In this document: one piece after another, positions 5,488 through 40,744 of the stretch
Position numbering within the stretch: the stretch's first letter is position 1
Layout of the letters: each line of letters starts with the position of its first letter
Source of the DNA: an uncultured Collinsella sp.
GTDB lineage: Bacteria > Actinomycetota > Coriobacteriia > Coriobacteriales > Coriobacteriaceae
Length of the DNA stretch: 64,000 bases
Reading direction: 5' to 3'
Assembly: GCA_947642445.1 (NCBI GenBank)
Contig: CANRSF010000011.1
Location: 1 to 64,000, forward strand
Translations under genes and position numbers: made by a program
The notes under the pieces: model-generated
The model's database searches: none
Told to the model about the DNA's origin: nothing
What the model saw: only the letters and a program-made list of their open reading frames with translations

Positions 5488-5504
5488 CTCTGCTGTACGC
5501 CCCT

Positions 5505-5564: not shown

Positions 5565-5624
5565 CGGGGCTACCGCGATGTTCTCGTTGGGTCTTGAGGG
5601 ACGCCAAAAATAGACTTGCTTGAT

Positions 5625-5655
5625 GCCGCCTCTGCTATCGGGGCGGCTTCTTTTT
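5625..5655 (+). terminator. Terminator downstream of the hydratase gene
   Basis: GCCGCCTC (5625-5632) pairs with GGGGCGGC (5640-5647, one G-T pair), 7-nt loop, followed by TTCTTTTTG. It lies 138 nt after the hydratase stop, beyond the 17-bp palindrome. Confidence 0.7.
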
Positions 5656-5662
5656 GTCGAAA

Positions 5663-5697
5663 ACCACCACAAAGGGGACAGGCACCTTTGTGGTGGT
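5663..5697. repeat. CCACCACAAAGG palindrome, copy 1
   Basis: ACCACCACAAAGG (5663-5675), loop GGACAGGCA, CCTTTGTGGTGGT (5685-5697): a perfect 13-bp stem. Two more copies lie at 6530 and 7334 with the loop inverted (TGCCTGTCC), so this copy is in the opposite orientation. Confidence 0.8.
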
Positions 5698-5750
5698 GGG
5701 GACGAGCTCGATGTTGTTGTGATCGTTGAGCGGCATGTTAATGGGCGTCC

Positions 5751-6653: not shown

Positions 6654-7325
6654 GTGAGCCGTTCTGCCCGTATTGGATTGATTGTCTTGGCGCTTGCGAT
6701 CGCTGTGGTTGGCGCGGGCGCTGTCGGTATGGCATTTCTACCTGCTGCGGTGACGGAGCCGGTGGTCAAGCCTGTGACTCAATCTGTCGAACTTCTGACC
6801 GGCGACGACAAGCCCGAGACCATTACCGTTGATTTTGATGAGCAGCCGGCTGTGCTGGGTATTAGCAATTATCCGCGTATTCAGCTTGGGGCCATGCGCT
6901 ATACCACGGATACAAGCCTGATCGATAGGGCGTCCGAGCTACTCAAGGGCAAAACATTTAAGCGTTGGTACGGATATGCGTCCTATCGGGCAAAAGCGAA
7001 CGACATGGTTGGCGGATGCCACTCGTCCATCGAGCTGGACACTGCAAACGGCGCAAAGTTATGTGATGTCTCGTACGATCCGGGCTACGAGGGCAATGAG
7101 GGTCCGGGCGTCTACATCATGGACGGCGATGTCGCCTATGTCATGGAGGGCGACCAGACCGAGCTCAACGATTTTATGGGTCAGTGTATCCAAGATGCCT
7201 ATAAACAGACCTGCTTGCCTGACCCGCAGACTGCACGCGATAGTGGGTCTGCCCGTACATGGCTGTTCGAGGATGAGATGCCCTGGACCGTCGAATCGGG
7301 AAGTGCGGGTTCGGCGAAGGAGTAG
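6654..7325 (+). CDS. Secreted or membrane-anchored protein of unknown function
   Basis: 223 aa from GTG 6654, chosen because GGGGTG lies 7 nt upstream and the product then begins with a typical short positive N-region (MSRSAR); in-frame GTGs at 6615 and 6639 are alternatives. One N-terminal hydrophobic segment (residues about 6-28, IGLIVLALAIAVVGAGAVGM) is followed by an acidic extracytoplasmic domain containing three cysteines (GGCHSS, KLCDVS, QTCLPD). No family recognised and no clear similarity to the neighbouring 222-aa protein. The gene is flanked by two same-orientation copies of the CCACCACAAAGG palindrome, 6530 and 7334, the second starting 8 nt after the stop. Confidence 0.65.
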   Translation: MSRSARIGLIVLALAIAVVGAGAVGMAFLPAAVTEPVVKPVTQSVELLTGDDKPETITVDFDEQPAVLGISNYPRIQLGAMRYTTDTSLIDRASELLKGKTFKRWYGYASYRAKANDMVGGCHSSIELDTANGAKLCDVSYDPGYEGNEGPGVYIMDGDVAYVMEGDQTELNDFMGQCIQDAYKQTCLPDPQTARDSGSARTWLFEDEMPWTVESGSAGSAKE

Positions 7326-7333
7326 AGACCGCG

Positions 7334-7368
7334 ACCACCACAAAGGTGCCTGTCCTCTTTGTGGTGGT
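7334..7368. repeat. CCACCACAAAGG palindrome, copy 3
   Basis: ACCACCACAAAGG (7334-7346), loop TGCCTGTCC, then TCTTTGTGGTGGT (7356-7368), with one arm change. Same orientation as copy 2. Confidence 0.8.
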
Positions 7369-7377
7369 TTTCGGTCT

Positions 7378-7595
7378 GTCTCGATTTGTAACATCTTGGC
7401 CGCTAAAAGTGGGCCTGGTGTTACAGATTTAGATTTTCGATTCGGGTGTCTTCTGTTCGTCTCGATTTGTAACAGATAGAGCTCTATTTGCCGACTAGTT
7501 GTTACAGATTGAGACAAACGGGCGCCGCTGAACAATTCGTCTCGATCTGTAACATCTAGGATCAAAAATGGCTGCTAGATGTTACAGATCGAGAC
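7378..7595. repeat. Tandem array of three 57-bp palindromic elements (GTCTCGATYTGTAACA arms)
   Basis: Elements at 7378-7434, 7459-7515 and 7539-7595 are each exactly 57 bp: a 16-bp left arm GTCTCGATYTGTAACA, a 25-bp core, and a 16-bp right arm TGTTACAGATYGAGAC (degenerate in the first element). The cores differ almost completely between copies; the third extends the stem with TCTAG/CTAGA. Spacers of 24 and 23 bp give starts 81 and 80 bp apart. No ORF and no transposase nearby. Confidence 0.85.
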
Positions 7596-15928: not shown

Positions 15929-16021
15929 CAATGGCGGGTGAACGGCATGGGGGCATGCCCGGCCTGCAAAAAAAGAGGGGTGCCGCGGCCTCGCCGGGCT
16001 GTGGCAAGAGAAGGGACAACC

Positions 16022-18799: not shown

Positions 18800-18883
18800 A
18801 AAACGCAACAAACAAGAGAACGGCGCAGAGAACGGTTGGACAGCGAGCGAGTCCCAGGCGTGGCGAGGTGCCTTGAAAGAGGA

Positions 18884-18980
18884 GGGCATAGGGCTTTTGC
18901 CCATGCCCGACGATTGAAAGGCAGATCGTCCGTCTGGGGCTCGCGCAGCGTCAAGTCGACCGCCGTTCGGTAGAACGGCG
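18884..18980 (+). promoter_or_regulatory. Structured leader before hypA
   Basis: Two hairpins: GGGCATAGGGC-TTTT-GCCCATGCCC (about 18884-18909, one bulged A) and the perfect 8-bp CGCCGTTC-GGTA-GAACGGCG (18961-18980), which abuts the hypA ribosome site GAAGGAA. No T-tract. No riboswitch class recognised. Confidence 0.45.
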
Positions 18981-18993
18981 GAAGGAATTAAAA

Positions 18994-19422
18994 GTGCACG
19001 AGCTCGGGATTGTTTATCACATCATTCGTGATGTCGAGAATGTGGCGCGCGCCAATGGCGTGAGTCGCGTTTCGAGCGTGACGCTGCTCCTGGGCGAGGT
19101 CTCGGGCGTCGTTCCCGATCTGCTGCTTGATGCTTGGCGCTGGGCGGCAGATAAAAAGCCTATCACGCAGGGCGCGGAGCTTATTGTGGAGCCTGTCGAG
19201 GCCGTGACGCATTGCGAGGCGTGCGGCTGCGACTACGCGACGGTCGAGCACGGCAAGACCTGCCCCCATTGCGGTAGCGGCGAGACCTATCTGCTGCAGG
19301 GCCAGGAGGTCATGATCAAGCAGATCGAGACCCCCGACGAGGACCCGACAGACGCTGCCCCCGACGGCCTATCCGATGCCCCCGATGCCGTCGACGCCGC
19401 CAACCCCCTCCACATCGCCTAA
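18994..19422 (+). CDS. hypA: Hydrogenase nickel-incorporation protein HypA
   Basis: 142 aa from GTG 18994 with GGAAGGAA 9 nt upstream. It starts MHELGIVYHII: His2 is the conserved nickel ligand and MHE is the family hallmark. The zinc site is CEACGC...CPHC (about residues 72-93), followed by a HypA-typical beta segment and an added acidic Asp/Pro/Ala tail of about 30 residues. HypA delivers nickel to [NiFe]-hydrogenase with HypB. Here it stands alone, without hypB or hydrogenase subunits in the window, downstream of the iron-sulfur flavoprotein and behind a hairpin-rich leader. It may serve a hydrogenase or other nickel enzyme encoded elsewhere. Confidence 0.9.
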   Translation: MHELGIVYHIIRDVENVARANGVSRVSSVTLLLGEVSGVVPDLLLDAWRWAADKKPITQGAELIVEPVEAVTHCEACGCDYATVEHGKTCPHCGSGETYLLQGQEVMIKQIETPDEDPTDAAPDGLSDAPDAVDAANPLHIA

Positions 19423-19423
19423 C

Positions 19424-19507
19424 TTAGTCGTTGGGGACGTTCTTAAACGACTAGTCGAAAAAGAACGTCCCCAATGACTAGCCATTTAAGAACGTCCCCA
19501 ATAACTA
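19424..19507. repeat. TTGGGGACGTTCTT repeat cluster (REPIN-like)
   Basis: TTGGGGACGTTCTT at 19431-19444 and two inverted copies AAGAACGTCCCCAA at 19461-19474 and 19488-19501, interleaved with GACTAG-type sequence. Related copies lie at 23103 and 56551. Confidence 0.8.
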
Positions 19508-19549
19508 CTTTGCTAGAGCATATCGCTCGCCATTAGTCAAGGCATAGCT

Positions 19550-19778
19550 GTTTAAACGAAATAGCCTCAGTCTCAGCACGTTTGCATCTGTTTAAAAGCG
19601 GTAATAATGACAGCATGCGCATATCCGTCGTGTAAGTATTGGTTGGGTATCAGTTATCAGCGGCAGATCAGCCAATGATGCCGGAATGTAATCAACTTGT
19701 AACAAATTAAGACGTTTAAACAAATAATGCTACCTTTTGCAGTTTTTCAAACAATTCTGCTGTATTTGCAGCTATACT
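19550..19778 (+). promoter_or_regulatory. PTS operon upstream region with three GTTTAAAC-like sites
   Basis: GTTTAAAC at 19550-19557, GTTTAAAA at 19590-19597 and GTTTAAAC at 19714-19721 in an A/T-rich 300-bp gene-free region. TATACT (19773-19778) is the best -10 candidate, without a clear -35. The palindromes may bind the operon's regulator; this is inference. Confidence 0.4.
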
Positions 19779-19825
19779 CCATAACTGTCGTGTAGGAATT
19801 ACGTAGACAAAAAGGAGGTTATGTG

Positions 19826-20815
19826 ATGGTAAGTATTGTTCTTGCTAGCCATGGTGACTTGGCGGCTGGAATCAAGCAGACGGGCTCGATGGTCTTTGGC
19901 GATCAGCCGTCTGTAGCCGTGGTCTCGCTCGAGCCGAGCATGGGCCCCGACGACTTCCGAGCCAAGGTCGAGGAAGCAGTCGCTTCCTTCGAGGACCAGG
20001 AGCAGGTGCTCTTCCTCGTTGATCTGTGGGGCGGCACGCCCTTCAACCAGATCAGCGGTCTCATCGAGGGCCATGATTCCTGGGCTATCGTCACCGGTGT
20101 CAACCTGCCTATGCTCATCGAGGCATATTCGCAGCGCTTTGACGCAAAGAACACTGCACATGCGATCGCAAAACATCTCGTGACTGAGGCTAAGGCCGGC
20201 GTGCGCGTCAAGCCCGAGTCTCTGGAGCCCGAGGAGAAGAAGCCGGCTGCGGCCGCCGCTGCTCCTGCGGGTGCCATTCCTCCGGGAACGGTGATCGGCG
20301 ACGGGCACATCAAGATCGCCCACGTCCGTATCGACACGCGTCTGCTGCATGGTCAGGTGGCCACCACGTGGACCAAGCAGATCAACCCCAACCGCATCAT
20401 CGTGGTCTCCGACGGCGTTGCTCACGACGAGCTCCGCAAGACCATGATCGAGCAGGCTGCCCCTCCGGGAGTCCACGCCAACGTCGTGCCCATCAAGAAG
20501 ATGGCCGAGGTCGTCAAGGACACGCGCTTTGGCGACACCAAGGCGATGCTGCTCTTCGAGAACCCGCAGGATCTGCTCAGGGCCATCGAGGCCGGCGTCG
20601 ACATCAAGGAAGCCAACATCGGTTCCATGGCCCACTCCAAGGGCAAGGTCGTCGTCACTAACGCCGTCGCCATGGGCGATGACGACGTCAAGACCATCGA
20701 GGCTCTCAAGGCCAAGGGCGTCAAGTTCGAGGTCCGCAAGGTTCCTTCGGATTCCTCCGAGGATCTCGACGCCATGTTGAAGAAAGCTAAGGCCGAACTG
20801 GCCGCTCAAGCATAG
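19826..20815 (+). CDS. PTS mannose-family enzyme IIAB component
   Basis: 329 aa; AAAGGAGG (19811-19818) is best spaced for ATG 19826 rather than the GTG three nt earlier. IIA domain at residues 1-125, with the phosphorylated histidine in VLASHGDLA (about His9). An Ala/Pro/Glu-rich linker follows (about 132-155), then the IIB domain with its active histidine in RIDTRLLHGQVATTW. It passes phosphate from HPr to incoming sugar through the IIC/IID membrane subunits encoded next. Mannose-family systems carry mannose, glucose, amino sugars or sorbose; the sugar cannot be decided from sequence alone. First gene of a tight operon with IIC, IID and probably DUF956. Confidence 0.93.
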   Translation: MVSIVLASHGDLAAGIKQTGSMVFGDQPSVAVVSLEPSMGPDDFRAKVEEAVASFEDQEQVLFLVDLWGGTPFNQISGLIEGHDSWAIVTGVNLPMLIEAYSQRFDAKNTAHAIAKHLVTEAKAGVRVKPESLEPEEKKPAAAAAAPAGAIPPGTVIGDGHIKIAHVRIDTRLLHGQVATTWTKQINPNRIIVVSDGVAHDELRKTMIEQAAPPGVHANVVPIKKMAEVVKDTRFGDTKAMLLFENPQDLLRAIEAGVDIKEANIGSMAHSKGKVVVTNAVAMGDDDVKTIEALKAKGVKFEVRKVPSDSSEDLDAMLKKAKAELAAQA

Positions 20816-20833
20816 TAAAGGAGGGTCCGATAC

Positions 20834-21652
20834 ATGTCTGCAATCACTATTCTGCTTGTTGCGATTGTCGCGTTGCTTGCCGGTATGGAAGGCATTCTGG
20901 ATGAGTTCCAGTTCCATCAGCCGCTCGTGGCATGCACGCTTATCGGTCTCGTAACCGGTCACCTTCAGGAGGGCATCCTCCTGGGCGGTTCGCTCCAGAT
21001 GATGGCCCTTGGCTGGGCTAACGTCGGCGCCGCCGTCGCGCCTGACGCCGCTCTGGCCTCGGTCGCTTCTTCGATCATCATGGTGCTCGCCCTCAACGGT
21101 GGCGCCACTGATTCGGCCAAGGCCGTTACCGCCGCTATCGCCGTCGCCGTCCCGCTGTCGGTCGCTGGCCTGTTCCTGACCATGATCTGCCGTACCCTGG
21201 CTACCGCTATGGTTCACGGCATGGACGCCTGCGCCGAGAAGGGCGACTTCGCCGGCATCGAGCGTTGGCAGTACGCCGGCATCCTCATGCAGGGTGTTCG
21301 TATCGCCATCCCGGCAGTACTTCTGTGCATCATCCCGGCCGAGGCCGTTACCAACGCGCTTAACGCTATGCCCGATTGGCTGTCCGGCGGCATGGCTGTC
21401 GGCGGCGGCATGGTCGCTTCCGTCGGTTACGCCATGGTCATCAACATGATGGCCACCAAGGAGACCTGGCCGTTCTTCATCCTCGGCTTTGTCCTTGCTG
21501 CCATCCCTCAGCTCACGCTGATCGCCCTTGGCCTCATCGGTATCTCCCTTGCCCTCATCTACCTTGGCCTTAAGGATCTGGCCAAGCAGGGTGGCGGCAT
21601 GGGCGGTGGCTCCGGTGACCCGCTCGGCGACATTCTGAACGATTACGAGTAG
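20834..21652 (+). CDS. PTS mannose-family enzyme IIC component
   Basis: 272 aa, 18 nt after IIAB, with AAAGGAGG before ATG. Seven or eight hydrophobic helices. The N-terminal EFQFHQPLVACTLIGLVTGHLQ and the ILLGGSLQMMALGWANVGAAVAPDAALA stretch (20834-based residues about 45-75) are strongly conserved in ManY-type IIC proteins. Together with IID it forms the sugar-translocating channel. The Gly-rich C-terminus (GGGMGGGSGDPLGD) is cytoplasmic. Confidence 0.93.
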   Translation: MSAITILLVAIVALLAGMEGILDEFQFHQPLVACTLIGLVTGHLQEGILLGGSLQMMALGWANVGAAVAPDAALASVASSIIMVLALNGGATDSAKAVTAAIAVAVPLSVAGLFLTMICRTLATAMVHGMDACAEKGDFAGIERWQYAGILMQGVRIAIPAVLLCIIPAEAVTNALNAMPDWLSGGMAVGGGMVASVGYAMVINMMATKETWPFFILGFVLAAIPQLTLIALGLIGISLALIYLGLKDLAKQGGGMGGGSGDPLGDILNDYE

Positions 21653-21668
21653 GAGGGGAGTGATACAT

Positions 21669-22589
21669 ATGGCAGAGAACAAGATTCAGCTCACCAAGGC
21701 TGACCGTAAGAAGGTTTGCTTCCGTCATCAGTTCCTTCAGGGCTCGTGGAACTACGAGCGTATGCAGAACGGCGGCTGGTGCTTCGCAATGATCCCTGCG
21801 ATCAAGAAGCTCTACACCAGCAAGGATGACCAGATTGCCGCTCTTAAGCGCCACCTGGAGTTCTATAACACCCACCCCTATGTTTCCGCCCCCGTCATTG
21901 GCGTTACCCTCGCCCTCGAGGAGGAGCGCGCCAACGGTGCTCCGATTGACGACGTCGCCATTCAGGGCGTCAAGGTCGGTATGATGGGCCCGCTCGCCGG
22001 CGTCGGCGACCCCGCCTTCTGGTTCACCCTTCGCCCGATTCTGGGCGCACTGGGCGCTTCCCTGGCCCTGTCCGGCAGCATCGCCGGTCCGCTGCTGTTC
22101 TTCTTCGCGTGGAACATCATCCGTTACGCCTTCCTGTGGTACACGCAGGAGTTTGGCTACAAGGTCGGCTCCTCCATTGCCAAGGACCTCTCCGGCGGTC
22201 TGATGGGCAAGGTCACCGAGGGTGCTTCCATCCTGGGTATGTTCATCATCGGCGCCCTGGTCGAGCGCTGGGTGTCCATCTCCTTCACTCCGGTCGTCTC
22301 CAAGGTCACGCAGTCCGCTGGCGCCTATATCGACTGGGCCAACCTGCCCGCCGGTTCTGAGGGCATCAAGCAGGCATTGACGATGTACAGCTCTGTCGGT
22401 GCCAACGCACTCGACCCGGTGAAGGTCACCACGCTTCAGGCCAACCTCGATCAGCTCATCCCCGGCCTTGCCGCCGTGTGCCTGACCCTTCTGGTCTGCA
22501 AGCTCCTCAAGAAGAAGGTCAGCCCGATCGTCATCATCCTGGCTCTCTTCGCCGTCGGCATCATCGGTCGCGTCTGCGGCTTCATGTAA
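21669..22589 (+). CDS. PTS mannose-family enzyme IID component
   Basis: 306 aa from ATG 21669, with AGGAGGGG in the preceding intergenic bases; a GTG at 21660 lies too close to that site. It begins with the family signature of a soluble N-terminal part (LTKADRKKVCFRHQFLQGSW, NGGWCFAMIPAIKKLY), then GVKVGMMGPLAGVGDPAFWF and C-terminal membrane helices. It partners IIC in the membrane. A hairpin with a T-rich tail follows at 22647, so the downstream DUF956 gene may be expressed at a lower level. Confidence 0.93.
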   Translation: MAENKIQLTKADRKKVCFRHQFLQGSWNYERMQNGGWCFAMIPAIKKLYTSKDDQIAALKRHLEFYNTHPYVSAPVIGVTLALEEERANGAPIDDVAIQGVKVGMMGPLAGVGDPAFWFTLRPILGALGASLALSGSIAGPLLFFFAWNIIRYAFLWYTQEFGYKVGSSIAKDLSGGLMGKVTEGASILGMFIIGALVERWVSISFTPVVSKVTQSAGAYIDWANLPAGSEGIKQALTMYSSVGANALDPVKVTTLQANLDQLIPGLAAVCLTLLVCKLLKKKVSPIVIILALFAVGIIGRVCGFM

Positions 22590-30783: not shown

Positions 30784-31797
30784 CTATCCCCTAAATTCAA
30801 AGGTGCTCAGGCCAAACGTCAGCAGATCGCCGTTGCGCAGCGGGCAGCGCGTAATGCGGCGGTTGTTGACGAGCGTGCCGTTGGTGGAATTGAGGTCCTC
30901 GATCGACCAATCCGAGCCCGTAAAGGTGAGCTGGGCGTGGCGGCGCGACACGTTGGGGTCGCGCAGGGCAATATCGGAAACCGAGCGCTCGCGACCGATA
31001 GTCACCTGTGCGGAGGTGATGCTATGGCTCTCGCCGCTCACGACGTCGACGAGCTGGGCGAGCGGGCGCTGCGGGGCGCGAGTGCTCGCCATGTTGGAGG
31101 CGATGCCGGCTGCGGCGCCTAGGCCCACGGCGGCACCGGTCGCGGCGGCTCCGCCCATGCCGGCAAGCGCGTCGCGCGAGACGGTCTGCGGCACCGGGAT
31201 GGGTGCTGCGGCGGGGTCGGGGACGCTAGGCGCGAAGGGGTCTGCCACGGCAAGCGGGTCGGGAGCGGCGGCGCGAGGCGTCGGCTGCTGCTGGGGCATG
31301 GCGGCGGGGCGCTGCTGCTGCGGGGCAGCAAACTGCTGCTGGCCGGCGCGCGGGGCGCTGGCGGCACGGCTTGCCGCGGAGTTGTTTTGGCCCAGACCGT
31401 TTTGATAGGCGCGCTCTTCTTCGTACAGGCGGCCGAGCGTGGGGGCATCGACGTTCTCGGCAAAGACCGAGAACTTGCCGGCGCGCAGCTGCGGATCGAT
31501 CATAAAGCGCACGAGGGGCTCGCCGACAAAGACATAGCGGCGCTTTTCGGCCTGCGCCTTCACAAACTCGCGGACCTCGCGCGAAAGCTCGGGGTAGAAC
31601 GGGGCGAGCATGGGATCGTCGTCGGCGGCGATCAGGATGGTATAGAGTGCCGGCGCCGTGTTGACGCCGTTGATCACCAGAGTCTGATCCTCCATGTCGC
31701 GAGCGGCCTGCTTGGCAAGCTTCTTAAAGGAGAACGGGGCACGGGTGGCACCGAAGATGCCGGCCACGTGGTCCTCGAAGATGTTCAGGAAGTTCAC
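30784..31797 (-). CDS. FhaA-like protein (DUF3662 plus FHA domain)
   Basis: 337 aa from GTG 31797, which overlaps the upstream kinase stop (GTGA); GGAGAGTG lies about 8 nt before. The N-terminal DUF3662 domain (about 1-115) has FEDHVAGIFGATRAPFSF and VFVGEPLVRF. A Gln/Ala/Pro-rich linker (about 130-235) leads to a C-terminal FHA domain (about 250-335) with VTIGRERSVSDIAL, VSRRHAQL and LNSTNGTLVNNR. In mycobacteria FhaA recruits phosphorylated regulators of peptidoglycan synthesis. Second gene of the operon. Confidence 0.94.
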   Translation of the reverse strand: MNFLNIFEDHVAGIFGATRAPFSFKKLAKQAARDMEDQTLVINGVNTAPALYTILIAADDDPMLAPFYPELSREVREFVKAQAEKRRYVFVGEPLVRFMIDPQLRAGKFSVFAENVDAPTLGRLYEEERAYQNGLGQNNSAASRAASAPRAGQQQFAAPQQQRPAAMPQQQPTPRAAAPDPLAVADPFAPSVPDPAAAPIPVPQTVSRDALAGMGGAAATGAAVGLGAAAGIASNMASTRAPQRPLAQLVDVVSGESHSITSAQVTIGRERSVSDIALRDPNVSRRHAQLTFTGSDWSIEDLNSTNGTLVNNRRITRCPLRNGDLLTFGLSTFEFRG

Positions 31798-33647
31798 GAA
31801 AGATCACTCTCCGTATAGGTTCTTTGGTATCCGAGCAAATATAGGCATATCCCAACGATTATAGAGGATAGGGTTCCCGCAACCGCCGCCTTGGCGACGA
31901 CCGCGGCTGCAAGGCTGGCAATTTCCATATGGTGTGCAAGACAGGACGCCGCTGCGCAGCCGATGCCGGCGACAGCGATGGCGGCGATTACGGCAAGGTT
32001 TGAGCCCTGATCGGCACGCTTGGCATGGGCGTTGAGCAGCGCAGATGACGCCGCGGCAGTTGCCGCTACCAGCACAAAGGCAGCCCAAAGGAGTGGGTCT
32101 CCCAGCGCTGCGGCAACGTTACCGAGCCCCAGCACGCCTCCGGCTGAAAGCGCGACCGTGGCCAGACGGGCAAAAAGTGCGCCCATGCCCGTTGCCGCGG
32201 CGGCGCTTGCCGGGCCGAGCCAAAATGACGCGACGCCGGCGGTGACCCCAGCTGCCAGGAAGGTATTGCCGGTCAGACAGCCAAGCGCGAGTGCACAGGT
32301 GAGTGCGGCGCTCGCGGCAGCCTCGGTGCGACCCCAGGCGATCCACCAACCGGACATGGCGGCGGCAAAGATCACCGCGACGGGCAACATCGACAGGACG
32401 CCCTGTGCCTGCATGGTGGCGTTTGCCATGAGCACCAAAAAGCCCACAGCCGAGATGGCCGAGCCAATCTGGGGGGCCAGGCCGGCCGCCGCTCCGATCG
32501 CGATAGCCGCAATGACCAGGCCGGGAAGCGCCGCGACGCCGGCCGTCTGCATCAGCAAAAAGCTAAAGGCGCCGCACGTTAGCGCCGAGATAGCGTGCAT
32601 GGCGTAGTCGCGCGCATGGCTCCAGCGCGTGCCTGCCCAGCCGAGTGCGGGGTCGACCTCGATGACGTCGTCCTCGTAGTGCGACGGCTCGATATCGTCG
32701 AGCTCCTGCTCGTCATCCGAAAGTTCGCCAACCATTTGCTCCAGGCTGCGACGGCCTTCGCGCACGCTGCCCAGACCGGCAAGGAGCTGGTCGCAAAATG
32801 CCTCGATGCTGTTGGGGCGGTCCTGCGGCATGGGGGAGAGCGCGCTCATGAGCGCGGCCTCGGCTCCCGGGGGAAAGTGTGGTATCAGCTCGCTGGGATA
32901 GGTGGCGCCGCCGATGATGCGGCCGAGCGAGTCGGCGGGCGTGGCCGCCATAAAAGGAGCGCTGCCGCACAGGCCCTCGTAGATCACACAGGCGAGGGCA
33001 AAGACATCGGCGCGCTCGTCGACCGTGCCGGTCTCGATATCGAGCTGCTCGGGCGGCATGTAGCCGATGGTGCCGCCGCGTGAGCCGCCAAAGCCACCGG
33101 CGGACGACAGCCGCGCCATGCCAAAGTCGGTGAGCTTTACATTGCCCGAGTGGTCGATGAGCACGTTGGCGGGCTTAATGTCCAGGTGGAGTACGCCATT
33201 GCTATGGGCGAAGGTGAGCGCCTGGCCCAGGGCATCGGCAATGGCCGCGGCCTCGTCAAAGGTGAGCGAGTGGCCGTCCACGCGATGCAAAAACTCGGCC
33301 AGCGACATACCGTCGACATACTCCATAACCAGGTAGGCATAGGCGGTGTCATGCGTAAAGTCGATGACCTGCACGATATTGGGATGTTGAAGCATGGCGG
33401 CAGTGTGCGCCTCGCGCAGGACATCCATGATGTCGCTGGCGGGCATGCCGGCGCCGTTGATAAGGGGGATGCGCTTAATGGCGACGCGGCGGCGCAGGTG
33501 CGTGTCGCGGCAAATCTCGATGGAGCCAAAACCGCCGGTCGCAAGTGTCTCGAGCGGCTGGTACCGCTTGAGCAGCTCGCGAGAGCTGGTGCCCTCCAAA
33601 GGAACGTCCGGCGAGAACCGGGCGGTATGTTGCGAGAAAAGCGGCAT
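31794..33647 (-). CDS. Ser/Thr protein kinase with polytopic membrane C-terminus
   Basis: 617 aa from ATG 33647 with CGAGGG 6 nt upstream; a TTG two codons earlier is unlikely. Kinase domain about 30-290: LATGGFGSIEICR (divergent Gly loop), lysine in VAIKRI, catalytic loop HLDIKPANV, TDFG, and MPPEQL. The usual HRD arginine is leucine, so it is a non-RD kinase, but the catalytic Asp, Lys and DFG are present. An acidic linker (DDEQELDDIEPSHYEDD) leads to about nine C-terminal membrane helices without PASTA repeats. First gene of the six-gene operon and likely partner of the FHA proteins. Palindromic repeats occupy its upstream region. Confidence 0.92.
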   Translation of the reverse strand: MPLFSQHTARFSPDVPLEGTSSRELLKRYQPLETLATGGFGSIEICRDTHLRRRVAIKRIPLINGAGMPASDIMDVLREAHTAAMLQHPNIVQVIDFTHDTAYAYLVMEYVDGMSLAEFLHRVDGHSLTFDEAAAIADALGQALTFAHSNGVLHLDIKPANVLIDHSGNVKLTDFGMARLSSAGGFGGSRGGTIGYMPPEQLDIETGTVDERADVFALACVIYEGLCGSAPFMAATPADSLGRIIGGATYPSELIPHFPPGAEAALMSALSPMPQDRPNSIEAFCDQLLAGLGSVREGRRSLEQMVGELSDDEQELDDIEPSHYEDDVIEVDPALGWAGTRWSHARDYAMHAISALTCGAFSFLLMQTAGVAALPGLVIAAIAIGAAAGLAPQIGSAISAVGFLVLMANATMQAQGVLSMLPVAVIFAAAMSGWWIAWGRTEAAASAALTCALALGCLTGNTFLAAGVTAGVASFWLGPASAAAATGMGALFARLATVALSAGGVLGLGNVAAALGDPLLWAAFVLVAATAAASSALLNAHAKRADQGSNLAVIAAIAVAGIGCAAASCLAHHMEIASLAAAVVAKAAVAGTLSSIIVGICLYLLGYQRTYTESDLS

Positions 33648-33806
33648 GGCCAACCCTCGTGCGTTTAAAGTTCGTTTGCGAGTGGCGGGCGTGGGGCCGA
33701 GCCATTCGCGGTGGCATAGATGCTGCTAGTGTAGCACGCTCGGGCAGATGGCGAGGATAGCGGGATGCGAGGTGGCCCGATCGATTCGGCCCGTTTCGGC
33801 TCGTTT

Positions 33807-33944
33807 GGAAAGCGCATCTCAGTTTTCAGCCAAATTATGGGATGCGCTTTCCAAATGGGGTGGGCTGCGGAAACTGCATCCCAGAATATTGCCCTGGAAC
33901 GGGATGCGCTTTCCGAACCGGCGTCCAAAAGGAAACCGCATCCC
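33807..33944. repeat. Array of five alternating GGGATGCGCTTTCC half-palindromes
   Basis: GGAAAGCGCATCTC (33807-33820), GGGATGCGCTTTCC (33839-33852), GGAAACTGCATCCC (33869-33882), GGGATGCGCTTTCC (33901-33914) and GGAAACCGCATCCC (33931-33944): 14-bp units alternating in direction, 16-19 nt apart. It fills most of the gene-free 33648-34086 stretch between the divergent kinase and LuxR-type genes. Confidence 0.85.
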
Positions 33945-34061
33945 GCTTTGATGTGGGGACTGCGAACAAAAGCCGGACCGTGATCTGGCGCGGATTGGAG
34001 TTCGCCTGAATCATTGATGCTGGCTGGTGTGAGAACAGAGATAAACGAGCGGCTCGAGCGA

Positions 34062-34067
34062 TATAAT
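34062..34067 (+). promoter_or_regulatory. -10 box of the double-HTH regulator gene
   Basis: TATAAT at 34062-34067, 20 nt before ATG 34087. It overlaps an in-frame ATG at 34066, arguing against that start. No convincing -35. Confidence 0.55.
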
Positions 34068-34086
34068 GACACGCTATGGAGGCCGT

Positions 34087-36222
34087 ATGCTCTTTTCCCG
34101 CCGTTCTGCTACATTTGCCTGCGCCATTGCGCTTGTCGTAATGGCGGTCACCCCTTATCACCGGTTTTCATCTTCAATCGGCCTAGCGTCAGGTGCAATG
34201 ACCTGGCTCGTTATCCTGGGCGCATGCCTCGCGGCGTTTGTTCATGGTGCTGCGCTATGCAAGGGGGGAATGAGAAGGCCGAGGCATCTCGGTGCCATCG
34301 GTGTTTTCCTTGGTGTTATTGCAACGGTTCCCGAATGGGCCGACCTGGCTTTCTATGCTCGCGGAGACTCTATTCCAATCGTGTTTGCACCGATTTGGTT
34401 GTTACATGGCGTTTCGTGTGTCTCGTGCTTTGTTGGGTCGCTGCTTCTCTCATATGTTATTTGGGGCACGGCGGACTCTCCTTTGACGCAGAGGTCGACA
34501 CGGACTGACGAAAGGGAAACTCGTCACCCGCAGGACGAGATTTTTACAGAAACAATAGCCGTCATGTCTTGCCTGCTGTTTTGCTGTCGAGTTTCATGGA
34601 GAGTCGTTCCCGAGCCATGGGGGATGCCCCCTGTAACGGCCGCGTCAATTGGCCTTGCGCTTTTAATTCCGTTGGTCTATCTCGCATTGACTGTGGCCCC
34701 GCCGTTTTGCCGCCCTCGTGCCTTTGGCCATGGGCGGCGCGACGTGTTTGCCTGTTCTGTGCTCGTAGCAGTTCCTATTGGTCTTATTCCGGCTGTTGAG
34801 GCGGCATACTTCGCAAGCGATGCCGTGGTCATTGCATTGCTGGCGATGGGGTCCGTTATCGCTGCTGCCTTCGTATGCATGTTGCTAAGGGGGAAACGGG
34901 ACAACAATTCGGATATCGCCTGTGCGTCCGACACATTCGATGCGGGGGTGTTTTCCCCTGCCCTCTCGCCTAGAGAAGAGCAGTTTGTTCGACTGCTGCT
35001 CAAAGGGAAAACGCCGGCGGAAATTGCCAAGGAGACGGATACGAAGCCATCGACGGTGAGAACAACGCTTCACCGAGCATACGGGAAGGCGTCGGTTGCG
35101 GGCTCACGCGAGCTCGTGGCGCTGTTTGCGGGTGAGGGCGATACTGTAGGGCATGAGCTACCGCAGCGGCATGCTGATGATATAGTGGCATCAGCTCGAA
35201 CGCGCCGGCTGTTTCGATACCTGCTCACATTATTCTTTATCCTCCTTGCGGCGGGGCCCTTGGTAATGGCGGATAGCGATTGGGGGTCCGGTGTTTCGCG
35301 GGCTGTCGCCTTTTCCCTCTTAAGCTACGCATTGGGTCTCGGACTGCTTCTGTCGCTACGCTACGCGGGTGGAAAAGCGAATCGTGGCGCTGCGCTGGAT
35401 AGAGCGGGTGAAGCGATTTGGCTCGGAAGCCCGTACGTATGGGCGGTGCTATCTGCTGTGGAATGGTCTTTTATCTATATCGCGGCATTGATGTGCATAC
35501 GCGTTCCGTTGATGGCTGTGCCGGTCCTGTTTTGCGGCGTGGCGTCTACGGCTTCGCTCGCTGTTGGGCTGCGTCCGTTTAAGGTGCATGCCCATGCTCG
35601 GGCTATCGTGCCGTTGGTGTCAATGGGCATGGTTGCCTTAATCTATGCGGTCGCTAGGGGGCGAATCCATGGACTTGCGGTGCTGACGGGGGTGCTGCTC
35701 ACATATATAGTGATGCGAAGCTGTCCGCAGCGCAAAATGCTTGGGATATGGATGCTTTGCTTCGGGGCGACGGCTCCTGTTTGGGCTGTCTTGCTCAATA
35801 TGGTGCAGGATCTGACGGTTTTCGAGCCGTTGTTCCTCGCGTCGTTGTTGGGGCAAAGTTCGGCTGTCAATGTCGTCGTGGCAACGGTGATTGTTTGCTG
35901 GTCTGTGCCCATGTTCGTTACGCACATCGCGCTCGCCCGCTCGGTTGAGGACGAGAAGGCCGTCTTGGAGTACCGGGCGAACGGGTCCACCGAAACGGCC
36001 CGCGTGCGCCAGCTGGCCCTGCTTACGTCGCGCTCCCTTTCTGATGTTCAGTCGCAAATTTTGCTGATGACGGCAGAGGGAGCAACGACAAAGGCCATTG
36101 CGGAGGATGTCGGTTACGCTGCATCTACGGTGCAAGCGCTGCGGTCTGCATCTTACCGCCAGTTGAAGATCAAGAATAAGGCGGAGCTAATTTTATTGTT
36201 ATCGCAGGTAAATAACGTGTAA
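34087..36222 (+). CDS. Membrane transcriptional regulator with two LuxR-type HTH domains
   Basis: 711 aa from ATG 34087 (GGAGG at 34078-34082, 4 nt spacing). Two similar halves: about eight hydrophobic helices (residues 7-266) followed by HTH-1 (293-347, LSPREEQFVRLLLKGKTPAE then IAKETDTKPSTVRTTLH); then about seven further helices (370-630) followed by HTH-2 (651-711, LSDVQSQILLMTAEGATTKA then IAEDVGYAASTVQALR). HTH-1 is canonical; HTH-2 is divergent but keeps the turn and the STV recognition start. Membrane LuxR regulators with one HTH are common in Coriobacteriia; two in a chain suggests fusion or tandem duplication. Codons are A/T-richer than the flanks. Directly upstream of the secreted-protein/ABC genes, which it probably controls. 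Confidence 0.88.
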   Translation: MLFSRRSATFACAIALVVMAVTPYHRFSSSIGLASGAMTWLVILGACLAAFVHGAALCKGGMRRPRHLGAIGVFLGVIATVPEWADLAFYARGDSIPIVFAPIWLLHGVSCVSCFVGSLLLSYVIWGTADSPLTQRSTRTDERETRHPQDEIFTETIAVMSCLLFCCRVSWRVVPEPWGMPPVTAASIGLALLIPLVYLALTVAPPFCRPRAFGHGRRDVFACSVLVAVPIGLIPAVEAAYFASDAVVIALLAMGSVIAAAFVCMLLRGKRDNNSDIACASDTFDAGVFSPALSPREEQFVRLLLKGKTPAEIAKETDTKPSTVRTTLHRAYGKASVAGSRELVALFAGEGDTVGHELPQRHADDIVASARTRRLFRYLLTLFFILLAAGPLVMADSDWGSGVSRAVAFSLLSYALGLGLLLSLRYAGGKANRGAALDRAGEAIWLGSPYVWAVLSAVEWSFIYIAALMCIRVPLMAVPVLFCGVASTASLAVGLRPFKVHAHARAIVPLVSMGMVALIYAVARGRIHGLAVLTGVLLTYIVMRSCPQRKMLGIWMLCFGATAPVWAVLLNMVQDLTVFEPLFLASLLGQSSAVNVVVATVIVCWSVPMFVTHIALARSVEDEKAVLEYRANGSTETARVRQLALLTSRSLSDVQSQILLMTAEGATTKAIAEDVGYAASTVQALRSASYRQLKIKNKAELILLLSQVNNV

Positions 36223-36258
36223 ACGCCTGAGCAATCAACTCAATAGCGGGTGTTTACA
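36218..36258. promoter_or_regulatory. TGTAAAC...GTTTACA inverted repeat before the secreted-protein gene
   Basis: TGTAAAC (36218-36224, overlapping the regulator's TAA) and GTTTACA (36252-36258), flanked by GCC/GGGT. It sits about 75 nt before the secreted-protein start: a candidate operator for the membrane regulator. A GCGTCGACGC palindrome lies further down. Confidence 0.4.
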
Positions 36259-36331
36259 GACATCTTTCTCTATTCATGCGAAGGTTGCCGTGCGTCGACG
36301 CATTGTTAACCGCTTTTGATTGGAGAAGGCC

Positions 36332-36844
36332 ATGATTAAGCCAAGGAGCGCTATTGCTCGAATCGGAGTCGGCTTGGTGATTGCAGCTGGTCTGTCCCTA
36401 GGGGTTCCCGCTGCATCGTTTGCACAAGAGGAGTTTGACACCTCTCAGGTTTCCAGCATTACTCAAAACGCCGATACGGGAATTACGACCTGTACGAACA
36501 ATGCCGATAAGGCATTTAGTTTTCAATGTGCCGGGACGAGTGCAACTGGCTACCGTCAAAAGGATGATTCCTCATCGCTCTATCTGGATATCCAGGGCCA
36601 TACGGGAAATCCGCTTCGGTTATATACAGACGGTGCGTATAACACAAGCGGTAGCGGCAGCATGAATTGTACTCAGGGAACGTATCGTTCGAATCACAAG
36701 GGACAGTGGGAAATGTATAACCTCGTCCGTGAGAACGGGCGATCTGCGGCGCGACTGACTGCATGGGCGGAGTCTGGCTACGGCACTGTTATTGGCGTAT
36801 GGAGCCCCGACTGCGTCGGGCATTTCCACAAGCTTCCCGCATAG
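36332..36844 (+). CDS. Secreted protein of about 14 kDa after processing, unknown
   Basis: 170 aa from ATG 36332 (GGAGAAGG just upstream; the in-frame TTG 36320 overlaps it). A clear signal peptide: MIKPRSAIARIG, hydrophobic VGLVIAAGLSLGVPAAS, predicted cut after ASFA before QEEFD. The mature part of about 135 aa is polar, Gly/Ser/Thr/Tyr-rich, with four cysteines (TTCTN, FQCAG, MNCTQ, SPDCVG) that may form two disulfides, and ends HFHKLPA. The layout (small exported protein, dedicated ABC genes, adjacent regulator) recalls bacteriocin-type or surface-peptide systems, but I recognise no family and see no leader with a double-glycine site; export would be Sec-dependent. Confidence 0.75.
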   Translation: MIKPRSAIARIGVGLVIAAGLSLGVPAASFAQEEFDTSQVSSITQNADTGITTCTNNADKAFSFQCAGTSATGYRQKDDSSSLYLDIQGHTGNPLRLYTDGAYNTSGSGSMNCTQGTYRSNHKGQWEMYNLVRENGRSAARLTAWAESGYGTVIGVWSPDCVGHFHKLPA

Positions 36845-36858
36845 TTGTTTGAAATGGC

Positions 36859-36892
36859 TCCCTTCCGGCTTTCTGGGTCGGAAGGGGGAGGA
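36859..36892 (+). promoter_or_regulatory. Hairpin adjoining the first permease ribosome site
   Basis: CTCCCTTCCG (about 36858-36867) pairs with CGGAAGGGGGAG (about 36879-36890, one extra G). The right arm runs into the GGGGGAGGAGG ribosome site, so folding could limit permease translation relative to the secreted protein. Confidence 0.45.
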
Positions 36893-36898
36893 GGACGT

Positions 36899-37780
36899 AT
36901 GAACCAAAAGCTCGCAAGATACGAACTGTCGAAAACGATTAGACGTCCAGCTTTTATCCTTGCTCTCTTGATTGCGGTCGCAGTTGCAATAGCTGCCGCG
37001 CTGGAGCCGTGGGCAAATTTGGAAAAAGAGCGCCACAACCTTCTTTCTTTTGGTTACGGCGTTGGCGTGCAAGCCGAAAATTATCTCGGTCAAACACGTG
37101 AAAGCAGCTTCGGTAACTGGATTGTTGTGAGCGCGAACGCGCCACTGTCTGCGTCGGTGTTTTTCTATGCACTGCCCCTGCTTGCAATGTTGGCTGGATC
37201 TTGGTCGTGTCTCTTTGAGCGTTTGAGTGGTTATGACATGCAGATATGCACGCGCGTTTCCAGAAAGGCGTACGTGAACGTAAAGATGCTGTCTGCTTTC
37301 CTCTCCGCGTTTACAGTGACTGCCATTCCTCTGCTCGTCAATTTCCTGATCGTCTCGATGCTTTTTCCTGCGTATCTTCCTCGGGTCGATGAGTCGACTT
37401 ACGTAGGACTTTACCTGCATAGCTACTTCTCCGGTCTATTTTATTCGCATCCTTTGTCATATGTGCTCGCATACACGCTGTTCGATGCTGTCACGCTCGG
37501 GACTTTATCCATGGCTGTAACTGGCTTCTCAATTTTGTTTCGTAGCAGAATCAAAGCGATAATTGTCCCGTATCTGCTAATGGTTGCGTGGCATTTTGCA
37601 AATGGCTGGATCTTCGGCGTAATGGCTTGTGTGGGGTTTAACTGCAATATCCTCAACAGCATCAGGTCGGAATCGCTGAATAACTGGCCAGACATTCGAG
37701 CCGGTTTTGCGGAAATCATATTATTGACCCTTGCTTCGTTGGCTTTTTCTGGGGCGTGGAAAAGACGCGAGGTGGTCTGA
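36899..37780 (+). CDS. ABC transporter permease subunit 1
   Basis: 293 aa from ATG 36899 set by GGGGGAGGAGG; an earlier TTG is rejected. It has an N-terminal basic segment and a first helix (PAFILALLIAVAVAIAAAL). A long extracytoplasmic loop follows (residues about 40-80), then five further helices (SASVFFYALPLLAMLAGSW, TVTAIPLLVNFLIVSMLF and others), ending with a cytoplasmic basic tail (WKRREVV). This matches ABC-2-type permeases of peptide or antimicrobial export and immunity systems. Its stop overlaps the next permease start (TGATG). Confidence 0.78.
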   Translation: MNQKLARYELSKTIRRPAFILALLIAVAVAIAAALEPWANLEKERHNLLSFGYGVGVQAENYLGQTRESSFGNWIVVSANAPLSASVFFYALPLLAMLAGSWSCLFERLSGYDMQICTRVSRKAYVNVKMLSAFLSAFTVTAIPLLVNFLIVSMLFPAYLPRVDESTYVGLYLHSYFSGLFYSHPLSYVLAYTLFDAVTLGTLSMAVTGFSILFRSRIKAIIVPYLLMVAWHFANGWIFGVMACVGFNCNILNSIRSESLNNWPDIRAGFAEIILLTLASLAFSGAWKRREVV

Positions 37781-38616
37781 TGCTGTTTAGGCTGGTCGCC
37801 GCGGACCTGAGGACCGTTTTGAAGAAGAACATCATCACTTTTATTGCAATTGCGGCAGTGACCGTTGCGAACTTGGTGTACGCCTACGGATTGTCTTCTG
37901 TGTATGGGGTTAGAACGGATACCTTGGGGTTTGCGGATAATCTTGCGCTCGTGTTTGCCGGATCTGCTCCGTTTGAGCCTAGGCCCGGGGTCATGTTTGT
38001 GCCTCCGCTAGGATGGCTATTTCTCATTCTGCTTATTCTCTATACAACACTCGACTATCCGACCGAATCGTTGCACGGGTTTGGTTTGCAAGCGCTTGTT
38101 CGATGCCGGGCAAGAACCCTTTGGTGGGTCTCGCGTTTTATCTTGGTGGCGGCAGTAACGGCATTTTCACTGCTCGTGGTGGTTTGCTCTGTTGTGATTT
38201 GGAGCTTGGTGGTGAGCTCCTCGTTCAGCGCGGTCATTCATGGTGAGTCGCTTCAACTGGCTAATTTGGCGCCGTGGTTTCTCAAAGCTGCCGAGGCAGA
38301 TGCGCTGCCGTTTTTCATAGGTCTCTTATTTGCTTTTGAGGCGCTTGCGTTTGCGCAGGCAGCGGTTGGGTTTGTGCTTGGGTCGTCAGTCTCGTTTGTG
38401 GTTTTAATGAGCTACCTGATCTGCTCGGCATATGCACGACATTGGGCGCTATTGGGTAACGCCTTGATGCTGTTGCGCTGGGGTGGAATTGTCAAAGAGG
38501 GAATCGCGGCGGGCTCGAGTGTCTTGTCATCAATTGGGCTTATGTCGTTATGCCTATCGTTGGGTGGACTGTGGTTTCGAAGGGCCGACCTTATAGAAAA
38601 GGGGGACAAGATATGA
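37780..38616 (+). CDS. ABC transporter permease subunit 2
   Basis: 278 aa from ATG 37780, overlapping the previous stop by 1 nt; GAGGTGG provides the ribosome site. Six hydrophobic helices (NIITFIAIAAVTVANLVYAY, GWLFLILLILYTTLDY and others) with a short cytoplasmic start MLFRLVAADLRTVLKKN, again ABC-2-like. It is not closely similar to permease 1, so the transporter is probably a heteromer of two permeases and the ATPase encoded next. Ends in ATGA overlap with that ATPase gene. Confidence 0.78.
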   Translation: MLFRLVAADLRTVLKKNIITFIAIAAVTVANLVYAYGLSSVYGVRTDTLGFADNLALVFAGSAPFEPRPGVMFVPPLGWLFLILLILYTTLDYPTESLHGFGLQALVRCRARTLWWVSRFILVAAVTAFSLLVVVCSVVIWSLVVSSSFSAVIHGESLQLANLAPWFLKAAEADALPFFIGLLFAFEALAFAQAAVGFVLGSSVSFVVLMSYLICSAYARHWALLGNALMLLRWGGIVKEGIAAGSSVLSSIGLMSLCLSLGGLWFRRADLIEKGDKI

Positions 38617-39257
38617 GTGTGATCGTAAGGGGCGTATCGAAGCGCATGGGTAAAAACGATGTCCTGCGCAACGTGTCCATCGAGGTTGACCCTGGGACTG
38701 TGGTCGGGCTTCAGGGGATAAACGGTTCGGGTAAGACCATGCTCATGCGAGCGGTTTGCGGGTTGATCAAGCCTACCGAAGGCGAAATCTCTATCGATGG
38801 CCAAAGGCTTGGGGCGGACATCTCGTTCCCGCCGAGTCTGGGGATGTTGATCGAGGCGCCTTCCTTTTTGGGATATCTGTCTGGCTACGACAATCTGAAG
38901 CTCATCGCTCAGATCAAGGGCGTTGCCACCCCCGAGGACATTCGCTCTGCCCTGCGGCTCGTGGGGCTCGATGCAGACGAAAAAAAGAAGTTCCGAGCAT
39001 ACTCGCTTGGGATGAAGCAGCGTCTGGGGATAGCTGCGGCAATTATGGAGAAGCCGAAGCTGCTTGTTCTCGATGAGCCAACGAATGCCCTCGACGAAGC
39101 GGGCGTTGAAATGCTCAAGCGCGTTGTGGCGATGGCGGCATCAACGGGTCGTGAGGTCCTTCTGTCCAGCCATGACGGAGAGGTGCTCGAGGAACTGGCC
39201 GATCGGGTTTACTGCATGCGCGACGGTGCCGTTGTGAAAGTTCGGGAAAGGTCGTGA
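38613..39257 (+). CDS. ABC transporter ATP-binding protein
   Basis: 214 aa; ATG 38613 overlaps the permease stop (ATGA), with AGGGGGA upstream. Complete ABC nucleotide-binding domain: Walker A INGSGKTMLMRAV, signature YSLGMKQRLGIAAAI, Walker B LLVLDEPTNALDEAG, and switch His in LLSSHDGE. Length and sequence fit the short lantibiotic-immunity/bacitracin-type exporters (LanF/BcrA-like) rather than importers; no substrate-binding protein is encoded nearby. Drives the two permeases of this cassette. Confidence 0.92.
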   Translation: MSVIVRGVSKRMGKNDVLRNVSIEVDPGTVVGLQGINGSGKTMLMRAVCGLIKPTEGEISIDGQRLGADISFPPSLGMLIEAPSFLGYLSGYDNLKLIAQIKGVATPEDIRSALRLVGLDADEKKKFRAYSLGMKQRLGIAAAIMEKPKLLVLDEPTNALDEAGVEMLKRVVAMAASTGREVLLSSHDGEVLEELADRVYCMRDGAVVKVRERS

Positions 39258-39922
39258 GCGCGATGAAGAAGACCCTGTGGACGAGAAGATCGGCGCTCGC
39301 GCTTTTTTGCTGTGCTGCTGCCGGCCTTGCGGGCATGAGGGTGAGCGTCGTTAACGGGAACCGGACGGTCATTCCTGAGAAATATTACGCGGAGGGCGAA
39401 TGGCTCTCGATGGATGGAGCGTTTCTGGGGTCGAAGGATGTGGTGACTGATGGGTATTCGTTTTGCATAGACGGGGCAGAGTTGCTCACGCCGCGCGAGT
39501 ATCTCAAACGAGCACATGACGATTATTCAAAATATGGCACCGTGGATACGAAAACGAGACTGAAGGATGCCGACATCACGTGCGTTATCGCCGTAAAGAT
39601 GCGTGTCAGAAATAGGGATAATATCGACGGTGGAATCAAAGCGTATGTTTGGCATCTGGTTCCGGAGTCTGCGCCAAACTATGATTTTGTAGTCAATACC
39701 GATCTGATAACGCAAGCCATGCCGGTCCTTGGCGGCTCTGCTGCGTTTGCCGTGGAGGTTGGGGCAGAAAACGAGTTGCTCGTCCCATTTATGATGCAGA
39801 ACACCAACGACTATTTCGAAGGTTACGAGACCGTCCGTTTTGAGAAAGCATTTCCCGGGACTTACACGATGAAGATGACCGATCTGCCGGAGCGGAGGCT
39901 CTTAAGGTTTGAAGTGAAATAG
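39254..39922 (+). CDS. Exported or membrane-tethered protein of unknown function
   Basis: 222 aa. GTG 39254 overlaps the ATPase stop (GTGA); an ATG at 39263 is an alternative. The N-terminus MSAMKKTLWTRRSALALFCC looks like a signal peptide (basic stretch, then ALALFCCAAAGLAGM), without a good lipobox. The rest is a soluble beta-rich domain (WLSMDGAFLGSKDVVTDGYS, ITCVIAVKMRVRN, FPGTYTMKMTDLPERR) that I cannot assign; similar-sized accessory proteins occur beside ABC-2 exporters. Last gene of the cassette, followed by a strong hairpin. Confidence 0.7.
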   Translation: MSAMKKTLWTRRSALALFCCAAAGLAGMRVSVVNGNRTVIPEKYYAEGEWLSMDGAFLGSKDVVTDGYSFCIDGAELLTPREYLKRAHDDYSKYGTVDTKTRLKDADITCVIAVKMRVRNRDNIDGGIKAYVWHLVPESAPNYDFVVNTDLITQAMPVLGGSAAFAVEVGAENELLVPFMMQNTNDYFEGYETVRFEKAFPGTYTMKMTDLPERRLLRFEVK

Positions 39923-39959
39923 CTCGAGAGCAAGGCAAAACGGGTCCATTGGCGGTACG

Positions 39960-39999
39960 CGCGCCCGATTCCAGGCGCCCCGGCCCGGAATCGGGCGCG
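39960..39999. terminator. Strong hairpin between convergent genes
   Basis: Perfect 13-bp inverted repeat CGCGCCCGATTCC (39960-39972) / GGAATCGGGCGCG (39987-39999). No T-tract on either strand, so termination is inferred only from its position between convergent genes. Confidence 0.5.
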
Positions 40000-40027
40000 G
40001 GACGAGGCGCCTTCGGTGTCGGCCGGC

Positions 40028-40744
40028 CTACCGCTTCTTCTTGCTCTTCTTCTGCTTGCGCTGCTTGCCCTTGGTCTCCTGGGGCTTGTCGCCCTGTTTT
40101 GCTTCGGCAGCGGCCTTTTCTGCCTTCATCTTCTTGCGTTTGGTCTCGATGCGGAGTTTTTTGTTGATGCGCGCCTTAAGGAAGGGACCGAACTGCTCGG
40201 CATCGCCGCGGACAAAGGTGTCCTTAGGGATCGTCACGCCCTGGTCGGCGAACATGGCCACAAAGATGCGCTCGCCGTCGAGCACGTGGTCGAGCTTTTC
40301 AAACGGGAAGAACTGCGACTTGCCGCTCGTGCCCCAAACCATCAGGCCGTCCTCGTTGGCGGCGACGCGGCGATAGCGGCCACCCATGGACTCGTCTGCC
40401 TCGACGGCATCGATAAAGTCGCGCGCGAGCGTATGGTGCAGATTTTTGCTCCACCAGGCCAAAAAGGCGCCGAACACGATCAGCACGACGCCGAACTTGA
40501 TCCAGCTGCCGCCGGCCACCAGCATGCCGATGCCGATGAGCGCGGCAATTGCCGCGGCGACATACAGCGAGCCGCGACGCCTGGGCGAGGCGACCAGGCG
40601 GGCGAAGTCGGTGACGAGGTCGTTTTCGTATTGGTACTCGTTGAGGTACAGGATGCCGTCGTCGGCTGCGGCCTGCTCCTCGAGCGCGACCTCGACCTGG
40701 TCGGCTGCTTCGGAGGGAACGAGGTTGCTCTCTGCGTCTGCCAT
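40028..40744 (-). CDS. YcxB-like membrane protein with lysine-rich tail
   Basis: 238 aa; AGGAG precedes ATG 40744. Acidic N-terminus, two adjacent transmembrane helices (about 62-100, SLYVAAAIAALIGIGMLVAG and FGVVLIVFGAFLAWW), then a soluble domain (ANEDGLMVWGTSGKSQFFPF, HVLDGERIFVAMF) like the YcxB family, and a tail of about 45 residues that is nearly all Lys/Ala/Gln/Arg. Function unknown. It is divergent from dnaX, with 116 nt between the starts. Confidence 0.8.
   Translation of the reverse strand: MADAESNLVPSEAADQVEVALEEQAAADDGILYLNEYQYENDLVTDFARLVASPRRRGSLYVAAAIAALIGIGMLVAGGSWIKFGVVLIVFGAFLAWWSKNLHHTLARDFIDAVEADESMGGRYRRVAANEDGLMVWGTSGKSQFFPFEKLDHVLDGERIFVAMFADQGVTIPKDTFVRGDAEQFGPFLKARINKKLRIETKRKKMKAEKAAAEAKQGDKPQETKGKQRKQKKSKKKR

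Follow-up and report, generated by a model that had tools for sequence, protein, structure and literature searches.

We analyzed a 64,000-nucleotide stretch of DNA (the window) from contig 11 (CANRSF010000011.1) of the 2.02-Mb genome of an uncultured Collinsella sp. (GCA_947642445.1; G000 in our genome set), in which six consecutive plus-strand genes form a cassette. They encode a membrane regulator (R, 34087-36222), a Sec-type secreted protein (S, 36332-36844), two permeases with six transmembrane (TM) segments (M1, ABC-2 type, 36899-37780; M2, DUF2705-like, 37780-38616), an ATP-binding cassette (ABC) ATPase (A, 38613-39257) and a membrane-anchored protein (E, 39263-39922, with an alternative GTG start at 39254). 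The positions of all six genes agree with those in the initial annotation, as do the tight junctions M1/M2 (TGATG), M2/A (ATGA) and A/E (GTGA), but S and M1 do not abut and are separated by a gap of 54 nucleotides. On balance, we lean slightly towards reading the cassette as a mobile bacteriocin-type effector-immunity unit, in which S is likely to be the effector.

The cassette is a discrete mobile insertion of about 6.2 kb. Its neighbors are a Ser/Thr kinase gene on the minus strand (31794-33653) and, on the other side, a small minus-strand gene that is followed by dnaX. In 20 congeneric genomes the site is empty, and window position 33772 is joined to position ∼40023-40045 with a few tens of bases in between; the end-to-end comparison of the two insertion ends served solely to demonstrate this empty site. 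The inserted unit thus spans 33773-40022 (± ∼25 nucleotides), slightly more than the 34087-39922 first given for it. Collinsella aerofaciens D40t1 (G030) has an empty site here and carries the cassette at another location. In G024 the chromosomal site is also empty, and the cassette resides on the 29,994-bp circular plasmid NZ_CP084005.1 of C. aerofaciens NBRC 114504, where the R gene crosses the record start. Apart from the G030 block described below, both copies are near-identical to the cassette of the window, and their homology to it ends at position 39927, 5 bases past the stop codon of E. The suspected shift to A/T-rich codons is real, with a GC content at third codon positions of 0.53-0.67 in the cassette versus 0.75-0.84 in flanking genes. 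Together with the empty sites, the second location and the plasmid copy, this bears out the proposed acquisition by transfer. We found no integrase or transposase gene inside the cassette. Its left end contains a cluster of GGGATGCGnTTTCC inverted repeats (33807-33944, 5 sites), which occur 26 times in the genome with at most one mismatch, versus once for a reversed control pattern. These copies resemble repetitive extragenic palindromes: they are dispersed over the genome, 13 on each strand, and are often paired about 30 bases apart. The plasmid also encodes a DUF1778 protein with a neighbor, possibly a toxin-antitoxin pair (6904-7517), and a very large CAP-domain protein (18787-22065).

S has 170 amino acids and a signal-peptide-like hydrophobic N-terminus ending in ASFA-Q, where we predict cleavage from this N-terminus itself rather than from a dedicated predictor. 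The four cysteines initially highlighted are present in S of the window; they are not conserved across the family, and we rejected them as a defining feature. An alignment of 29 divergent S proteins instead revealed a G-x-W-S-P-D motif near the C-terminal end, with an invariant SPD and a nearly invariant W; the WSPD signature occupies residues 157-160 (36800-36811) in the window. The AlphaFold2 (AF2) model predicts an ordered β-sandwich from residue ∼60 to 170 (pLDDT ∼98 in the mature part), giving a secreted protein of ∼11-14 kDa. Sequence searches found no known structure for S, and Foldseek with the model gave no match at E ≤ 1e-3; nucleoplasmin chains at the top of its list were read as generic jelly-roll similarity. 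A second look with VIA placed the N-terminal domain of XepA first (Z 8.1, root-mean-square deviation 3.3, 97 aligned residues, 6% identity), with the next entry at Z 7.1 and carbohydrate-binding modules (CBM6/29/32), PirA and YomS following at Z 6-7. XepA belongs to the lytic cassette of the PBSX prophage and has a C2-like sandwich, and its cytotoxicity was attributed to membrane action (PMC6834076). It differs from S in being a two-domain phage lysis-cassette protein, and we take the likeness of the S model to it as a hint only. A phage origin of the cassette was rejected: among the PHROGs, S, M2 and E were without a match and that of M1 was weak (E 0.015, to a family of unknown function), and scans of IMG/VR and phage records contained no homologue of S.

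The initial annotation anticipated that the gene order would recur with variable secreted proteins, and both expectations were borne out. Searches with S and E covered 150 relatives at first and ∼298 Coriobacteriia thereafter, and gave matches to S in 28 genomes and to E in 32; we read 47 loci with family profiles. The standard order is R - S - E0 - M1 - M2 - A - E, in which E0 is a second anchored protein, and the S-(E0)-M1-M2-A-E part recurs across Coriobacteriia in tens of genomes with divergent S proteins, so the arrangement is not due to chance. E was confined to Coriobacteriales in a spread of 346 Actinomycetota genomes, and a contig scan for cassettes gave matches only in Collinsella/Coriobacteriaceae; plasmid and phage records yielded no cassette from Bacillota. 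Several genomes carry multiple divergent cassettes, with three in G098 (L060, L061, L062) and at least three in G068 (L070, L071). Across relatives, S, E0, M2 and E match the Pfam families DUF2712, DUF5027, DUF2705 and DUF5028, in that order, mostly under the curated cut-offs. The window proteins S, M2 and E are all below these cut-offs; S scores 15.0 bits against PF10916 (DUF2712; gathering cut-off 22), a family matched by 5 of 15 S members with a best E value of 1e-3. A literature search found no paper naming any of the four families and no described function for them. Bacillus subtilis has both DUF2712 and DUF2705, and a Bacillota version of the cassette therefore probably exists.

Every intact S gene (32 of 32) adjoins ABC genes. 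The reverse does not hold, as no intact S is present in 14 of the 46 ABC-E cassettes, a count that includes several near-identical sister copies and partly reflects how the cassettes were found (many by E). S is absent in 11 (L057, L059, L065, L068, L070 twice, the second copy of L133, L072, L137, L138, L139) and frameshifted or fragmentary in three (L056, L064, L073). The clearest course of events is seen in L057, which is 95% identical to L055 over 13 kb save for a 620-bp deletion that begins at the start codon of S and ends within the first codons of E0. E0 now starts at the former ATG of S, and E0, M1, M2, A and E are still open. The ratio of nonsynonymous to synonymous divergence (dN/dS) between the two loci is 0.12 for E0, 0.24 for M1, 0.21 for M2, 0.02 for A and 0.21 for E; hence, in this one tested case, these genes are under purifying selection after the loss of S.

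This one-sided loss bears on what the ABC genes do. One of the roles first considered for the locus, secretion of S by an ABC exporter, is disfavored, since S itself carries a Sec-type signal and cassettes can retain their ABC genes in the absence of S. An exporter or helper should decay once S is lost and an immunity system should not, which favors immunity to a self-made effector. The same point matters for an alternative without killing, in which S would be secreted to sit on the surface or to bind glycans, and its modification, anchoring or folding would depend on a ligand or a lipid-linked component exported by the ABC proteins with E/E0. We consider this unlikely: the CBM-like sandwich of S, its constant adjacency to ABC genes and the resemblance of E to the uncharacterized Gram-positive envelope lipoproteins YjhA, YxkC and YcdA would suit such an assembly or maturation system, but a helper for S should have decayed in the 14 cassettes that keep ABC and E genes, and a patchy, plasmid-borne distribution would be unusual for a structural surface protein.

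A second observation favoring effector and immunity comes from sister strain G030. Compared with the window, its cassette diverges only within a block from inside the signal sequence of S to the end of M1 (36351-37800 in the window). The synonymous divergence (dS) is 1.50 for S and 1.46 for M1, versus 0.11-0.32 for R, M2, A and E. Thus, S and M1 were exchanged as one block by recombination, and M1 may hold much of the specificity for S because the two were exchanged together. Coevolution of S and M1 over all cassettes was rejected, as it is no stronger than that of S and M2. The specificity of M1 therefore rests on the single G030 swap.

The transporter itself also points to protection. The best of 201 NCBIfam models for A is the lantibiotic-protection ATPase LanF (TIGR03740), with 179 bits against a cut-off of 309.75; no named LanE or LanG model of NCBIfam matched M1 or M2. 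Lantibiotic immunity by LanFEG/LanI involves an ATPase, two six-TM permeases and an anchored extracytoplasmic protein (reviewed in PMC8538875), and the cassette has the same components in A, the two ABC-2 permeases and the anchored protein. It differs from LanFEG in that its ATPase scores under the LanF cut-off, and we found neither a lanthipeptide precursor nor LanB/C/M inside the 6.2-kb insertion, which holds no further genes. The cassettes L073, L127, L128, L129, L136 and L138 have a tandem pair of M2-type permeases where others have a single one. A LanF-like ATPase could also belong to an envelope-stress or antimicrobial resistance module, in which ABC and E/E0 guard against a foreign antimicrobial sensed by R, and S is a co-secreted decoy or sensor. 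The dispensability of S in many cassettes agrees with this reading, and R is of a type of regulator through which Coriobacteriia respond to small molecules (PMC9734109). We nevertheless regard it as quite improbable: it leaves unexplained the S-M1 block swap and a presumably expression-limiting hairpin after S in so many cassettes, and it gives no reason to expect that S is always accompanied by ABC genes.

This hairpin, a GC-rich stem of 14 bp in the S-M1 gap (36858-36888, plus strand; -24.2 kcal/mol, z -2.6), stands directly after the stop codon of S, and its 3′ arm overlaps the Shine-Dalgarno region of M1. In many relatives a hairpin with an unrelated sequence occupies this position. A perfect stem of at least 8 bp follows S in 10 of 27 cassettes, versus 0.6% of random windows from the same cassettes, which are mostly coding and not other intergenic gaps. 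The hairpin may be attenuator-like, and the single transcript expected earlier to appear by RNA-seq from 36.3 to 39.9 kb is doubtful because of it. Rfam had no match in the cassette region, and a sigma-70 promoter scan found sites to be rarer than in shuffled sequence.

E had been taken for an exported partner of the ABC system. However, it is predicted to retain an N-terminal TM helix (residues 4-32) and hence to be membrane-anchored; its AF2 model consists of this helix and a β-sandwich. The nearest structures are the Gram-positive envelope proteins YjhA (Z 9.0), YxkC, CD0957 and YcdA, and a structure match from a sequence search was judged spurious. E of the window scores 22.3 bits (E = 1.7e-4) against DUF5028 (PF16431; gathering cut-off 29.9), the family matched by 15 of 22 relatives, with seven relatives above cut-off, and the plasmid copy of E, which is 99.5% identical, is annotated as DUF5028. 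Profile comparison by hhalign relates E0 to E with a probability of 97% (E 2.4e-11). In most cassettes the E0 gene separates S from M1; in L060 and L061 it follows E. Most relatives have E0, and it was lost in the window and its closest relatives. In L127, two S genes flank E0, one on either side. L070 encodes extra E0-like proteins upstream of its S-less cassettes (4002-6116 and 16013-17948, minus strand), one of them with tandem E0-like domains.

R is indeed the double helix-turn-helix (HTH) membrane protein originally described. PF00196 matches it in two stretches, with LuxR-type HTH domains at residues ∼292-345 and 650-704, and a Kyte-Doolittle scan gives ∼16 hydrophobic segments, arranged as two groups of eight with an HTH after each group. 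R evolves faster than the other cassette genes (dN/dS 0.35-0.42). LuxR activators with 10-12 TM segments and a single, C-terminal HTH are known in Coriobacteriia (DadR, HcdR and CadR; PMC9734109). R shares with them a membrane-spanning LuxR-type architecture and a position next to its presumed target operon; it falls outside their definition with its ∼16 segments and a second HTH in the middle of the protein, and looks like a tandem variant of this kind of activator. Of the 47 loci, 33 encode a double-HTH protein close to the cassette. The proximity of S to a regulator whose membrane domains are large would suit a signaling pair, in which S is an extracellular signal protein and R responds to its uptake or clearance by E/E0 and the ABC proteins. 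We think this very unlikely, as the double-HTH regulator was not detected in the fetched region of the intact loci L060, L061, L066, L071, L124 and L125, and S is modeled as a rigid sandwich of 110 residues and not a short peptide. Immunity to a self-made effector, favored over secretion and signaling by the one-sided loss of S, the S-M1 block swap and the hairpin after S, is thus the part we retain of the initial proposal of a secretion, signaling or immunity system.

By analogy, the nearest working model is a bacteriocin locus of the lactococcin-972/streptococcin B type. There, a Sec-secreted β-sandwich bacteriocin is followed by membrane and ATPase genes for immunity or transport, with a regulator upstream (PMC11796350). 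Some pneumococcal strains lack the peptide of streptococcin B (scbABC) and keep the immunity genes (PMC11796350), as do the S-less cassettes here. S shares with lactococcin 972 the Sec-type signal and a compact, predicted β-sandwich as mature protein. However, the lactococcin 972 models PF09683 and TIGR01653 (Pfam, NCBIfam) matched none of the 15 and 29 S members searched, and we rejected membership after hhalign against three genuine members gave a probability of 0.4% (E 0.15). The cassette further differs in having two ∼280-aa six-TM permeases instead of one large membrane protein (TIGR01654 gave no match), in the added anchored proteins E/E0 and in the WSPD signature. The initial remark that no known precursor is present is right only in the sense that S matches no named bacteriocin family; S itself is the likely effector. 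Two further identities were set aside: PADLOC matched just generic ATPase and HTH parts, which speaks against anti-phage defense, and the locus of the TMcin class (PMC12328743) encodes a metalloprotease together with a peptide, one half of which is TM.

We propose that R, with its tandem arrangement of eight TM segments and a LuxR HTH, would sense a signal and turn the operon on. S would leave the cell via Sec as a folded sandwich and may act on the envelope of neighboring, probably related Gram-positive bacteria. The hairpin would lower downstream expression, so that S is made in excess of the immunity proteins, and the LanFEG-like M1-M2-A transporter would protect the producer by ridding the membrane face of S or its product. 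E, and E0 in most relatives, would be LanI-like extracytoplasmic partners, and strains that lost S would retain the remaining genes for immunity only. Several points weigh against this model in addition to the counting biases noted above. Antibacterial activity is known for no S homologue, and that of S is inferred here. The XepA match is borderline, and a Z score of ∼8 possibly reflects just a common sandwich arrangement; the matches to carbohydrate-binding modules would fit wall or glycan binding. A scores well under the LanF cut-off, and over 153 cassette pairs the pairwise distances of S correlate with those of M2 (r 0.71) no less well than with those of M1 (r 0.59).

Whether the cassettes represent a new class of folded, Sec-secreted WSPD antibacterial proteins is, in our estimate, not quite an even call. 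Such a class would be widespread in Coriobacteriia, including human gut species, would be paired with LanFEG-like ABC transporters and one or two anchored immunity proteins with immunoglobulin-like folds, would be controlled by tandem-duplicated membrane LuxR regulators and would spread on plasmids and chromosomes. Competition in Collinsella and related gut Actinobacteria is seemingly little known, and our literature search found no described effector-immunity system of this type. Were S antibacterial, DUF2712, DUF2705, DUF5027 and DUF5028 would gain a joint function, and the cassette would offer a testable model of strain competition in the gut, for which nature provides versions with S, without S and with S swapped that experiments could use. 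Even if S is no toxin, the locus is an envelope system that is mobile and recurrent, and its membrane regulator with two HTH domains is unusual.

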